Source: Microvirga terrestris (GTDB lineage: Bacteria > Pseudomonadota > Alphaproteobacteria > Rhizobiales > Beijerinckiaceae). Taken from it: a DNA stretch of 64,000 nucleotides. The position numbers were made by a program, and so were the translations under genes. How positions within the stretch are numbered: position 1 is the stretch's first letter; every line of letters begins with the position of its first letter. Under the pieces are notes generated by a model. It was not told where the DNA came from, did no database searches, and saw only the letters and a program-made list of their open reading frames with translations. Positions 4,717 through 8,571 of this stretch are shown piece after piece. The stretch lies in NCBI RefSeq assembly GCF_015694425.1, contig NZ_JADQDN010000002.1, positions 124,001 to 188,000 of the forward strand, in the 5' to 3' direction.

Positions 4717-4741
4717 GGAACTGGACGGCGACAAGGCAGTT
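4717..4741 (+). promoter_or_regulatory. Near-consensus EcfG promoter of second small-RNA candidate
   Basis: GGAAC at 4717-4721, a 16-base spacer and AGTT at 4738-4741. The -10 differs from CGTT by one base. It points at the C-rich-loop element and terminator that follow within 75 bases, and no protein gene starts behind it. Confidence 0.45.
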
Positions 4742-4747
4742 AAGTTG

Positions 4748-4816
4748 ATAACCGGTCCGAATGCCCCCTTGGACTGGCACCTTTAAGGCGCAGCTTTATG
4801 GCTGCGCCTTTTATTT
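4748..4816 (+). ncRNA. Candidate stress small RNA with C-rich loop (GsrN-like design)
   Basis: Seen in the sequence: a 7-bp stem with one G-U pair, 4752-4758 with 4771-4777, enclosing a 12-base loop with five consecutive C (4759-4770). An intrinsic terminator with a 10-bp stem follows (4785-4794 with 4801-4810), then a T-rich tail. A near-consensus EcfG promoter lies just upstream, so the predicted transcript is about 65-70 nt. The same plan (5' stem with C-rich loop, then terminator) occurs in the stronger candidate at 6659. A small frame ending at 4786 reads into the terminator, so a short-peptide mRNA remains possible. The start is estimated from the promoter. Confidence 0.5.
4785..4816 (+). 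terminator. Intrinsic terminator, plus strand
   Basis: A 10-bp perfect stem (4785-4794 / 4801-4810) with a six-base loop, then TTATTTT. The T tract follows only on the plus strand, so it ends a rightward transcript even though the next gene (PRC-barrel) runs leftward. Confidence 0.85.
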
Positions 4817-5983: not shown

Positions 5984-6514
5984 TCAGGAGAGCGACTGCT
6001 CAAGGAGCGCCAGGCAAAGGCTTGGCATCCTGTCGGCGCTCGCCTTGGCCAGAGGGCTGACATCGCCGAGGCAACCGACTGGTTTGCGCATTTTAGGTTT
6101 TGGCCCGCTGGGAGCCTCGTTCCCTTCCCGCTGGCTGACGGGATGCTGGGTGGCGGGAGCCTGCATCTCCTCCTTGAGAGTGACAACAGGCAGATCCGTG
6201 TCGCGGGCGTAGATGGTGGTTCCCGTGAGAGGGTCGGACTTGTAGAGCACCGTCCCATCACGATCGCGTAGGATCACCGCCGCCTGGGCGACACCCACAA
6301 GCTCAACAATGGACACGGTGGCTGGGTTTGTACTCGGAACGGGGGCAAGCATGCGATCTCCCTTTGTGGGAGCGTTCATGCGCTGGGGCAGTCCGGCGTC
6401 GGCAAGGACCTCGGATTGCGCCTGATCAGACATGTTGAATGAGGCAGGAACGAAGCTTCCTGCAACGAAGAAGATTCCAGCCAGTCCCACCAGTGCCATA
6501 GGGATACGGAACAT
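5984..6514 (-). CDS. Unknown membrane-anchored or exported protein under EcfG control
   Basis: About 176 residues. I chose the ATG at 6514 because AGGAGAG precedes it and because an exact EcfG promoter (-10 at 6555-6558) would overlap the in-frame ATG at 6556. The N-terminus MFRIPMALVGLAGIFFVAG is a signal peptide or membrane anchor. The middle (about residues 65-110) has a compact VELVGVAQAAVILRDRDGTVLYKSDP segment that looks like a small beta domain. The C-terminal 40 residues hold two Cys in KPVGCLGDVSP and SLCLALLEQS. I do not recognise the family. Promoter and neighbours imply a general-stress function in the envelope. Confidence 0.75.
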   Translation of the reverse strand: MFRIPMALVGLAGIFFVAGSFVPASFNMSDQAQSEVLADAGLPQRMNAPTKGDRMLAPVPSTNPATVSIVELVGVAQAAVILRDRDGTVLYKSDPLTGTTIYARDTDLPVVTLKEEMQAPATQHPVSQREGNEAPSGPKPKMRKPVGCLGDVSPLAKASADRMPSLCLALLEQSLS

Positions 6515-6554
6515 CCCTCTCTCCTGCTCTTCAACCTCGACGTTTCGAAAATTC

Positions 6555-6579
6555 AACGCGACCGTATCTTTGATGTTCC
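6555..6579 (-). promoter_or_regulatory. EcfG promoter of the unknown exported protein
   Basis: Minus strand: GGAAC (6579-6575), 16 bases, CGTT (6558-6555). Exact. It is divergent from the small-RNA promoter 48 bases away. Confidence 0.8.
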
Positions 6580-6626: not shown

Positions 6627-6652
6627 GGAACCTTTATTTTCGATAGGACGTT
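6627..6652 (+). promoter_or_regulatory. EcfG promoter of the GsrN-like small RNA
   Basis: GGAAC at 6627-6631, a 17-base spacer, CGTT at 6649-6652. Exact consensus. No start codon with a ribosome site follows before the terminator at 6713, so its product should be an RNA. Confidence 0.82.
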
Positions 6653-6658
6653 CTTAAG

Positions 6659-6739
6659 GTACCGGCCTCCTGGTCCTCCCCGCATTCCCCTTGTGCATTG
6701 GCCGGCACCTTAGACGGGCTTCAGAGCCCGTCTTTTTTT
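6659..6739 (+). ncRNA. GsrN-like general-stress small RNA
   Basis: Predicted transcript of about 80 nt between an exact EcfG promoter and a strong terminator, in the gap between the unknown exported protein and phyR. The 5' part folds into a long stem: AAGGT (6656-6660) and CCGGCC (6662-6667) pair with GGCCGG (6700-6705) and ACCTT (6707-6711), leaving one A-C mismatch. It exposes a 32-base loop with the C runs CCTCC, CTCCCC and TTCCCC. The terminator hairpin follows directly. Known biology: Caulobacter GsrN is a sigma-T-dependent small RNA with a C-rich target-recognition loop that acts on stress mRNAs such as katG. Identity is inferred from architecture, promoter and location, not from alignment. 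Confidence 0.78.
6713..6739 (+). terminator. Intrinsic terminator of the GsrN-like RNA
   Basis: An 8-bp stem (6713-6720 with 6725-6732), a four-base loop, then seven T (6733-6739). The T run exists only on the plus strand. Confidence 0.93.
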
Positions 6740-6763: not shown

Positions 6764-6791
6764 AATAGCCCGGCGTTTAAGCCGGGCTATT
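6764..6791 (-). terminator. Intrinsic terminator of phyR
   Basis: An 11-bp perfect stem (6764-6774 with 6781-6791) around a six-base loop, followed on the minus strand by CTTTTG. It lies 28 bases after the phyR stop and faces the small-RNA terminator, so the two convergent transcripts end within about 80 bases. Confidence 0.8.
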
Positions 6792-6818: not shown

Positions 6819-7625
6819 TTAGGCAGTCGCAGCGCGCGCCTCGCGCCGGCGAGCGCTCTGCTGGAAGAACAGCGCCTGACTGATGACGGCGGACACATTG
6901 GCCGGCTGGAAGGGCTTGGCGATCAGGAAGGCCGGCTCCGGGCGCTCACCTGTGAGGAACCGCTCGGGATAGGCCGTGATGAAGATGACCGGAACCTCGA
7001 AGGACTTGAGGAGGTCGTTGACCGCATCGAGGCCGGAGCTTCCGTCCGCCAGCTGGATATCCGCAAGGATCAGTCCCGGCTGCTTTGCAGCAGCCAGCTT
7101 AACGGCTTCGGTGCGCGTGCGGGCGACGCCGGTGACGTTATGACCCAAGCCTTCGACAAGGGCCTCGAGATCCATGGCGATCAGGGGCTCATCCTCAATG
7201 ATGAGGATGTCCGTAGCCATATCGGCCGCAAGCTCGCGGCCCGCTTCGTCGACGAGGTCGCGCACGGTCCGTGTGTCGACATCGAGGATCTGGCCGACTT
7301 CCTCTTCTCCAAAGCCTTCGAGGCAGGAGAGAAGGAAGGCCTGACGGGGAAGCGGCGTGATCTGACCGAGCCGAACCTCGGCTGGCAGGTCGCGCTGGAT
7401 CTGCTCGCTCCGGCCGTTCACCGACAGGGAATTCCAGATCCGGGTGAACACCTGAAAGAGTTCAACCTTCACGTTTCCGGAAGGGCCGATCGTCTCAGGT
7501 TCGCTTACAAGCGTTTCGAGAGTTGCGGCGACATAGGCGTCCCCAGCCATCTGGCTGCCTGTGAGAGCGCGCGCGTAGCGGCGAAGGTATGGTAAGTGCT
7601 GGACGACAAGCTGGGCTGTCGACAT
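6819..7625 (-). CDS. phyR: General stress response anti-anti-sigma factor PhyR
   Basis: 268 residues with the PhyR arrangement: an N-terminal sigma-factor-like domain (about 1-130) and a C-terminal receiver (about 138-262). Receiver residues are visible: acidic E144/D145, phospho-acceptor D189 in LILADIQ, T217 in FITAYPERFLTG and K237 in AKPF. On phosphorylation the sigma-like domain is exposed, binds NepR and frees EcfG. It is divergent from nepR-ecfG with back-to-back EcfG promoters, so it is autoregulated by the sigma factor it releases. No PhyR-type histidine kinase (HWE or HisKA2) gene is seen in the window. Confidence 0.96.
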   Translation of the reverse strand: MSTAQLVVQHLPYLRRYARALTGSQMAGDAYVAATLETLVSEPETIGPSGNVKVELFQVFTRIWNSLSVNGRSEQIQRDLPAEVRLGQITPLPRQAFLLSCLEGFGEEEVGQILDVDTRTVRDLVDEAGRELAADMATDILIIEDEPLIAMDLEALVEGLGHNVTGVARTRTEAVKLAAAKQPGLILADIQLADGSSGLDAVNDLLKSFEVPVIFITAYPERFLTGERPEPAFLIAKPFQPANVSAVISQALFFQQSARRREARAATA

Positions 7626-7674
7626 TCGCTTCCCCTTAATTGTGCTTTTGACTCGTTGTACCGATGGTTCCTTT

Positions 7675-7706: not shown

Positions 7707-7731
7707 GGAACCGGGTGCAGCAATGAGCGTT
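7707..7731 (+). promoter_or_regulatory. EcfG promoter of nepR-ecfG
   Basis: GGAAC 7707-7711, 16 bases, CGTT 7728-7731. Exact, 76 bases before nepR. Its -35 lies only seven bases from the -35 of the divergent phyR promoter. Confidence 0.85.
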
Positions 7732-7807
7732 ATTGCTCGAAAACGAATATATGGATACTGCCAAGGTTGGCTACCCCGGATAAACGACGGGTGGCAAGGG
7801 GAAGAAT

Positions 7808-8029
7808 ATGACGGTTGATAAGGGGAACAAGCTCGCTCGGGTCAGTCTCGACAACGGCTCCGGCGAAAAGCTTGCAACCGATCCTAAACTCGACAGCGGC
7901 AGCCAGAAACGTATCGGCGACCAACTCCGCGCCATGTACGACGAGCTCATGCAGCAGCCCGTCCCGGACCGTTTCCGGGATCTGCTCGACCAATTGGACA
8001 AGAACGGCCGAAAGGGCGGGTCTCAATGA
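7808..8029 (+). CDS. nepR: Anti-sigma factor NepR
   Basis: 73 residues. The NepR core is clear: IGDQLRAMYDELMQQPVPDRF followed by a helix LLDQLD. NepR sequesters EcfG in unstressed cells and is captured by phosphorylated PhyR under stress. The ATG follows AAGGGGAAG. The stop overlaps the ecfG start (ATGA at 8026-8029), so anti-sigma and sigma are translationally coupled. The flanking tails are disordered and variable, as usual in the family. Confidence 0.95.
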   Translation: MTVDKGNKLARVSLDNGSGEKLATDPKLDSGSQKRIGDQLRAMYDELMQQPVPDRFRDLLDQLDKNGRKGGSQ

Positions 8030-8571
8030 CCCTAGAGCCGGAGCCCGAGTTACGGGAGGCTCTTCTGGCGGCGGTTCCCAGCCTCCGCGCCTTTGCCATC
8101 TCGCTCTCAGGCCAGGTCGACAGGGCCGATGATCTTGTTCAGGACACTCTGCTGCGGGCCCTTTCCAATCTGCATCGGTTCGAACCCGGCACGAATCTGA
8201 ATGCATGGCTCTTCACCATCCTGCGCAATCTCTTCCATTCCGAATACAGAAAGCGGCGCCGGGAGGTGGAAGACCCTGATGGCTCCTATGCCGGACGGCT
8301 GAAGGTGCAGCCCGAGCAAGGTGCCCACCTGGATTTCGAGGATTTTCGCAGCGCCCTCTCCCAGCTTCCCTCCGACCAGCGGGAGGCCCTTCTGCTGGTC
8401 GGGGCCTCAGGCTTCTCCTACGAGGAAGCTGCGAACATCTGCGGCTGTGCCGTGGGCACCATCAAGAGCCGCGTGAACCGGGCGCGATTGCGCCTCGCGT
8501 CGCTACTGAATGTTAACGACATCGAGGATCTCGGCCCCGACAGCATGACCCGGGCGGCCCTGCAGGGCTGA
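8026..8571 (+). CDS. ecfG: General stress ECF sigma factor EcfG (ECF15 type)
   Basis: 181 residues. Region 2 is at about 20-85, with QVDRADDLVQDTLLRAL and the FEPGTNLNAWLFTILRN helix. Region 4 is at about 110-165, with LPSDQREALLLVGASGFSYEE and the HTH AANICGCAVGTIKSRVNRAR. It directs RNA polymerase to GGAAC-N16/17-CGTT promoters, many of which lie within 5 kb here, including its own. A hairpin 29 bases after the stop probably ends the operon. Confidence 0.95.
   Translation: MTLEPEPELREALLAAVPSLRAFAISLSGQVDRADDLVQDTLLRALSNLHRFEPGTNLNAWLFTILRNLFHSEYRKRRREVEDPDGSYAGRLKVQPEQGAHLDFEDFRSALSQLPSDQREALLLVGASGFSYEEAANICGCAVGTIKSRVNRARLRLASLLNVNDIEDLGPDSMTRAALQG

Follow-up and report, generated by a model that had tools for sequence, protein, structure and literature searches.

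In Alphaproteobacteria, stress control centers on the PhyR–NepR–EcfG system, in which PhyR activates EcfG and NepR inhibits it; the best-known controls on the system are phosphorylation and protein partner switching.

Small RNAs have been described in the neighborhood of these genes. In the available portions of Tien et al. (2018; PMC5869019), GsrN of Caulobacter crescentus is an RNA of about 100 nt with an EcfG-type promoter, a C-rich unpaired 5′ loop (six C in a row) that serves recognition, and katG as its proven target; nepR and nepR-sigT mRNA co-purified with it, although no feedback on GSR transcription was found. BLASTn hits to GsrN are restricted there to Caulobacteraceae. The same portions describe GsrN-like RNAs beside the GSR locus, the usual place of predicted gsrN homologs, whose promoter is of the EcfG class and whose 5′ loop is C-rich: they are predicted in Rhodopseudomonas and Bradyrhizobium, and in Rhizobium, Sinorhizobium, and Brucella the prediction is joined by expression evidence. 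These RNAs were predicted from position and promoter only, and the available portions name no Methylobacteriaceae. ReC64 of Rhizobium etli, according to the accessible text of PMC3892343, is an 88-nt RNA of the phyR region with a mapped start and EcfG-dependent expression. In a search of the open literature that reached few subscription papers, no report of such an RNA in Methylobacteriaceae was among the matches listed.

Here we describe sRNA1, an RNA beside phyR in Microvirga that is GsrN-like in plan, has no Rfam family, and is of a known kind, since GsrN-like RNAs beside phyR have already been predicted (PMC5869019). What is new is a target prediction, in which the loop motif UCCCCUU would pair with AAGGGGA at the ribosome-binding sites of phyR, nepR, and, on our reading, about 12 other genes.

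The phyR locus and sRNA1

The window, meaning the whole 64,000-nt stretch of DNA that was analyzed, comes from a Microvirga genome of 4.2 Mb that is 99.99% complete (G000). Its PhyR is 91–100% identical to the Microvirga-labelled records among the 80 nearest named phyR loci (L050–L129), a set whose top row is a MAG labelled Rhizobiaceae. The features of the locus, in window coordinates, are:

6627–6652, + strand: EcfG-type promoter of sRNA1, GGAAC (6627–6631), 17 bases, CGTT (6649–6652); exact match
6658–6739, + strand: sRNA1, about 82 nt, with its start placed by promoter spacing
6662–6667, + strand: 5′ arm of the core stem, CCGGCC, pairing with 6700–6705
6668–6699, + strand: C-rich loop, UCCUGGUCCUCCCCGCAUUCCCCUUGUGCAUU, nearly invariant in 28 relatives
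6682–6696, + strand: mini-hairpin GCAU/GUGC with apical 7-nt loop UCCCCUU (6686–6692), the proposed seed; RNAalifold consensus
6700–6705, + strand: 3′ arm of the core stem, GGCCGG, pairing with 6662–6667
6712–6739, + strand: intrinsic terminator, stem 6712–6733, seven T at 6733–6739; terminator scan
6764–6791, − strand: terminator-like hairpin between the convergent genes phyR and sRNA1; terminator scan
6819–7625, − strand: phyR (Pfam PhyR_sigma2, PhyR_sigma-like, Response_reg)
7630–7637, − strand: phyR ribosome-binding site, AAGGGGAA, proposed target; 8-nt complement of the loop
7675–7699, − strand: EcfG-type promoter motif upstream of phyR; motif search
7707–7731, + strand: EcfG-type promoter motif upstream of nepR-ecfG; motif search
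7795–7803, + strand: nepR ribosome-binding site, CAAGGGGAA, proposed target; 9-nt complement of the loop
7808–8029, + strand: nepR (Pfam NepR)
7820–7827, + strand: second AAGGGGAA, inside nepR at codons 5–7; present in 8 of 12 loci compared
8026–8571, + strand: ecfG (Pfam Sigma70_r2, Sigma70_r4_2)

The original prediction placed an exact EcfG promoter at 6627–6652, and the sequence there reads as claimed, with GGAAC, 17 bases, and CGTT; from this spacing we would expect sRNA1 to start at about 6657–6659. Motifs of the form GGAACN(16–17)CGTT number 9 in the window, as against a mean of 0.95 and a maximum of 4 in shuffled sequence, and the motif search found EcfG motifs upstream of all three of sRNA1, phyR, and nepR. 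Two marks by which PMC5869019 recognizes GsrN-like RNAs are present: a near-consensus EcfG promoter lies directly upstream of sRNA1, and the gene stands close to phyR/nepR/ecfG, convergent with phyR at a distance of about 80 bases. The open reading frames that overlap sRNA1 span its promoter or stem. As a separate observation, an ORF of 190 codons without a Pfam match (5984–6556, − strand) lies divergent from sRNA1 and has an exact EcfG-type motif of its own (6555–6579, − strand).

In its EcfG-type promoter, C-rich loop, terminator, and phyR neighbor, sRNA1 bears out the resemblance in plan to GsrN that had been claimed for it, so far as the accessible text of PMC5869019 describes that RNA, and it shares order, neighborhood, and promoter class with the GsrN-like RNAs predicted there. 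GsrN is longer (about 100 nt, against about 82), and its run of six C is replaced in sRNA1 by CCUCCCC plus the mini-hairpin with UCCCCUU, so that the two loops are likened by description; nepR mRNA, a partner of GsrN, is for sRNA1 a predicted target. ReC64 is likewise comparable by description, as another short RNA in the phyR region (PMC3892343). Rfam 15 returned 0 families above the gathering cut-off in the window, and only a tRNA over 15 relative loci. A permissive Rfam search gave 21 matches, all below cut-offs, which we rejected; those inspected mostly reflected terminator likeness.

Conservation, fold, and relatives of sRNA1

Of the 37 Microvirga genomes searched with BLASTN, its own counted, 36 contain sRNA1; it was missed in G025, whose assembly is in 780 contigs. 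Beyond the genus, 24 genomes gave a single BLASTN match (G051), which lacks the sRNA1 plan. GGAAC stands upstream in 36/36 genus orthologs and the full GGAAC-N16/17-CGTT in 34/36. Conservation of promoter, core stem, and loop in near relatives, which the original prediction had set as its own test, is thus observed. More widely, 28 of the 80 phyR loci carry the loop motifs beyond the phyR 3′ end, on the strand opposite to phyR, and a variant in L062 (71 bits under R1, a covariance model that we built from the 28-relative alignment) raises this to 29/80 loci with the RNA in the same place. These 29 are labelled Microvirga, Methylobacterium, Methylorubrum, or Salinarimonas, with the MAG L050 as the exception. 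In a sample of 149 genomes from the GTDB family, 13 have the 19-nt loop core without any change (g1 6/6, g28 5/6, g401 2/2, none in the other 40 genera); in the sixth g28 genome (G235), R1 found a variant of the core. Eight of 15 loop-core places were inspected, and six have phyR and nepR adjoining; L252 is a paralog with an EcfG-like promoter, and L253 is unlike the RNA.

The predicted minimum free energy of sRNA1 is −37.6 kcal/mol, compared with −25.5 ± 2.8 for shuffled sequences (z = −4.3; 0/200 shuffles as good). The RNAalifold consensus of the 28 relatives comprises a 6-pair stem, two short inner helices (one of them GCAU/GUGC), and the terminator. A longer stem, 6656–6667 with 6700–6711, had been proposed at the outset; it does fold in this way in the window, with one mismatch (A6661/C6706), but only its inner six pairs belong to the consensus, and its outer part partly precedes the expected start of sRNA1. 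The terminator with seven T was correctly placed, with its stem at 6712–6733 and T at 6733–6739. Across the 28 relatives, stem, loop, and terminator form the conserved unit, and indels fall in the linker and terminator loop.

R1 scores the window copy, a member of its own training set, at 94.6 bits. Outside that set, it matches L037 (E = 1.7e-9), L038 (1.1e-6), L042 (1.1e-5), and L077 (7e-5), as well as Rhodoplanes L080 and L082 (3e-5 and 6e-5). In an alignment of 51 R1 matches, which was fitted to the R1 structure and whose rows are orthologs, paralogs, sRNA2 (below), and more distant loci, 95.5% of cells pair; sliding the partner positions cuts this to 25%–44%. Of the 21 pairs, 15 show double changes, and each of these belongs to one of the long helices: 6/6 pairs of the core stem and 9/9 of the terminator helix (helix 4). 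Both long helices covary while the loop stays nearly invariant. The short inner helices are without double changes, and the mini-hairpin, with no covariation support in the 51 rows, draws its support from folding. We are highly confident that sRNA1 is a real RNA; 6627–6739 almost certainly holds the promoter and gene of an EcfG-dependent small RNA.

Weaker relatives of sRNA1 lie near phyR in other Hyphomicrobiales. Removal of the 29 loci, of L074 (cut just after phyR), and of L077 from the 80 leaves 49 phyR loci. By hand selection from pattern output, 12 of these (L080, L082, L083, L085, L086, L088, L090, L091, L094, L096, L097, and L098) share a plan in which an EcfG-like promoter is followed by a stem, a loop containing CCCUCCCC or a similar sequence, and a terminator. 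These candidates occupy the strand opposite to phyR, 0.1–1.4 kb beyond its 3′ end, and their stem is often CCGGCC/GGCCGG. The Xanthobacteraceae-like loci may belong to the same group as the RNAs predicted in PMC5869019. A second model, R2, matched 13 of 51 loci at E ≤ 0.1, nine of them in its training set; among new matches, L096 and L099 reached E < 0.001, and L088 and L101 were weak, the latter on the other strand. Order- and class-wide model searches, in which 13–17 candidates were scored per listed genome, yielded five weak matches outside the family (E 0.003–0.01), and phyR, nepR, and ecfG are absent from each of these 3-kb loci. Since so few candidates were scored per genome, and since the class-wide search missed sRNA2 of the window, these searches are weak on absence. 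When 387 genomes of the class were searched for CGCCCCCC downstream of an EcfG-like promoter, 48 matched, with no GsrN recognized from the list.

Within Microvirga, the loop also appears apart from the phyR locus. Eleven further loop-bearing places (L037–L047) in seven genomes each have a GGAAC box, though several have a −10 other than CGTT, and each has a terminator-like end wherever enough sequence was displayed. The 19-nt loop core CCCCGCAUUCCCCUUGUGC is exact in 9 of the 11 and one base off in 2, whereas the stems differ (GGACCC/GGGTCC or CCGGCCC/GGGCCG). Changing stems around a fixed loop core suggest that the loop is the working, trans-acting recognition part. L042 and L045 adjoin ecfG paralogs, at 67% and 66% identity respectively, that are accompanied by a NepR-like stretch, and L039, L040, L041, and L044 adjoin a protein weakly similar to PhyR, which we read as a receiver-domain protein; in the upstream regions displayed beside L039–L042, L044, and L045, the seed is absent. 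BLASTN found no loop-bearing paralog in G000 itself.

The window does contain a second RNA of this general plan:

4717–4815, + strand: sRNA2, with EcfG-like promoter GGAAC-N16-AGTT, stem, loop GAAUGCCCCCUU, and terminator; R1 E = 0.0045

Its order is promoter, then ACCGGUCCGAAUGCCCCCUUGGACUGGCACCUUU, then terminator, and it is common to nine further Microvirga loci. Alsobacter (L104, L105) has an RNA whose loop reads ACGCCCCCUCUU, at a distance of 1.9–2.0 kb from the phyR start. The targets listed for GsrN include GGGGGCGU and UCGGGGGGCG (Table 1 in the accessible part of PMC5869019). By our reading, the sRNA2 and Alsobacter loops resemble the complement of these targets, the sRNA2 loop at least as closely as that of sRNA1; if either RNA of the window is nearer to GsrN, it may therefore be sRNA2.

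Predicted pairing of the loop

The complement of the apical loop UCCCCUU, whose predicted unpaired probability is 0.94–1.00, is AAGGGGA, found at the ribosome-binding sites of both phyR and nepR. The longer CAAGGGGAA occurs once in the window, at nepR, the sRNA1 antisense aside. The phyR leader is predicted to fold back on part of its own ribosome-binding site.

In the 29 loci with sRNA1, the longest exact complement of the loop in the 20 nt before phyR is at least 6 nt in 29/29 and at least 8 nt in 15/29, compared with 14% and 2.5% of 239 control ORFs; part of this match is expected because ribosome-binding sites are G-rich anyway, and the counts are not independent because the loci are related. 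Among 14 other loci, with loops picked by eye, the phyR complement reaches at least 6 nt in 12 and at least 7 nt in 11, against 5.3% of 114 controls for the latter. A nepR complement of at least 6 nt is found in 25/29 sRNA1 loci and 7/12 other loci, using script-assigned starts that look wrong in some loci (L064 and L066, for example).

The phyR sites differ between families in step with the loops. Most Methylobacteriaceae sites read AAGGGGA or CAGGGGA, and many Xanthobacteraceae-like loci have GGGAGGG opposite loops with CCCUCCC. In Alsobacter L104, the loop segment ACGCCCC faces GGGGCGU, a 7-nt complement within the phyR site AAGGGGCGU. L086–L091 set loop GCCCUCCC against site GGGAGGGC, L098 loop ACCCUCCC against GGGAGGGU, and L062 loop AUCCCCUUG against CAAGGGGAU; in the MAG L059 the exact complement runs to 11 nt. 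Two exceptions were noted: the phyR complement is just 5 nt in Rhodoplanes L080 and L082, and the loop of L073 lacks one C although its phyR site is the same as in L072. When loops and phyR sites were permuted among 15 loci, own pairs were better (p = 0.0085), and with one locus per loop type (10) p was 0.017 by energy and 0.0085 by run length; the corresponding tests gave p = 0.18 for nepR (14 loci) and p = 0.62 for ecfG (10 loci), neither of them significant. These replace a first, cruder rank test with hand-picked loops, in which phyR came first in 7/13 loci and which was limited to 13 because the pattern missed Methylobacteriaceae. That loop and phyR site change together between families is suggested by the sequences but falls short of proof, since the lineages are few and G-rich and C-rich stretches match by default.

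Across all 4.2 Mb of G000, there are 13 instances of AAGGGGAA-N2-9-ATG, phyR and nepR included, versus 4 when the pattern is read backwards. The 7-mer AAGGGGA precedes ATG at 55 places (54 distinct) versus 22 backwards, and about 14 of the 54 were kept by reading as plausible gene starts, again with phyR and nepR among them; the frames of L131, L142, L266, L294, L304, and L306 were excluded as unlikely starts. The remaining starts belong to groES (identified by eye), a Na/Ca exchanger, an EPSP-synthase-family enzyme (MurA-like by eye), GFO/IDH, CAP, CHAD, SLT transglycosylase, Wzz, a cyclase-domain protein, an RTX-repeat protein, and two proteins without clear family. With an estimated ~4000 genes, the chance of hitting the two named genes is about 1 in 10^5, before allowing for the seed having been chosen after the phyR and nepR leaders had been seen. 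We read phyR and nepR as the likeliest targets of sRNA1. Separately, the CAP-family gene at L140 has at its start AAGGGGAATGCG, an exact 12-nt complement of the loop.

Against this reading, the 7-mer pattern is commoner in six other Microvirga genomes, where AAGGGGA-N3-10-ATG occurs 37–105 times versus 9–30 backwards, and GGGAGGGY-N1-9-DTG is not rare in three Xanthobacteraceae-like genomes, with 11, 57, and 32 places versus 8, 21, and 6. Twelve AAGGGGATCCATG places fetched from G016 (L278–L289) were rejected, as they look like a dispersed repeat and not like ribosome-binding sites. This apparent repeat, which makes up part of the G016 count and is seen also at several places in G000, mimics a ribosome-binding site, and its open frames are often like SLPLRCAPAGNDT.

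For Methylorubrum extorquens, the accessible text of PMC4814048 considers a small RNA one possible cause of the stress-dependent rise in sigma-EcfG3 protein. Three genomes gave 22 EcfG-like matches, two of them with no listed start; AAGGGGA was not found in the 35 nt before any of their candidate starts, which leaves an sRNA acting on EcfG3 unsupported here.

Alternative readings and significance

The reading we favor, by a modest margin over its being wrong, is that sRNA1 is an EcfG-transcribed, trans-acting GsrN-like RNA whose loop seeds on the phyR and nepR ribosome-binding sites and so acts as a post-transcriptional brake or set-point. Under stress, EcfG would make sRNA1 together with phyR and nepR mRNA; the hairpin inside the C-rich loop would expose UCCCCUU; this would seed on AAGGGGA at the two ribosome-binding sites and in a small set of other mRNAs; and pairing would block ribosome entry, so that the partner switch would be braked or kept at a set-point. 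Promoter motif, structure, conservation, synteny, and complementarity can be read directly in the sequence, whereas transcription, EcfG dependence, pairing in vivo, and the direction of its effect are what we infer. The co-purification of nepR and nepR-sigT mRNA with GsrN in Caulobacter offers a precedent. Because PhyR and NepR act on EcfG in opposite senses, the overall outcome would turn on which of the two is more strongly repressed; our simplest guess is a brake, given that a complement of at least 6 nt precedes phyR in 29/29 loci and nepR in 25/29. More tentatively, and at somewhat less than even confidence, the phyR-linked RNA family as a whole may be a GSR feedback arm that represses phyR/nepR translation, in which loop and phyR site co-evolved and the loop was copied in Microvirga, in some cases beside ecfG paralogs.

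Less likely, in our view, sRNA1 is a GsrN-like stress RNA working downstream of EcfG, with structural or metabolic genes that have G-rich leaders as its targets and no role in controlling phyR or nepR; the match to their ribosome-binding sites would then be what any G-rich site gives. GsrN in Caulobacter behaves in this way, no feedback having been found in the available portions of PMC5869019, and the seed stands also at the starts of groES, the Na/Ca exchanger, the EPSP-synthase-family gene, CHAD, the transglycosylase, and Wzz. However, phyR and nepR are two of about 14 plausible seed-bearing starts genome-wide, and from family to family the phyR site varies along with the loop. Given the Caulobacter data against feedback, feedback on the core would amount to a lineage difference.

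That sRNA1 is a GsrN ortholog with the same main job, raising the catalase-peroxidase KatG against oxidative stress, seems improbable. The plan and promoter class are the same, and predicted gsrN homologs typically lie near GSR genes, but BLASTn hits to GsrN are confined to Caulobacteraceae in the accessible text (PMC5869019). Moreover, PF00141 (catalase-peroxidase) has no match in the 99.99%-complete G000, with Caulobacter vibrioides positive among the controls; GsrN's proven katG mechanism therefore cannot be copied in this genome, and protection through katG is unsupported here. The proposed targets of sRNA1 are instead the core regulators themselves. A main role in cis, by pairing with read-through phyR 3′ ends, appears about as improbable: the arrangement is convergent, and the RNA lies opposite to phyR in the 29 loci, but a terminator-like hairpin separates the two genes, and the loop-bearing paralogs elsewhere, with other stems, fit a trans-acting loop. 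A strong hairpin and terminator without a functional RNA is very improbable, given the near-fixed loop, the covarying stems, and the promoter and synteny kept across genera.

The sRNA1 family yields alignments and models for an RNA absent from Rfam 15. The favored reading extends a known kind of RNA in a specific and testable way; if true, an RNA made by EcfG and directed at phyR and nepR would add translational feedback to the stress core.
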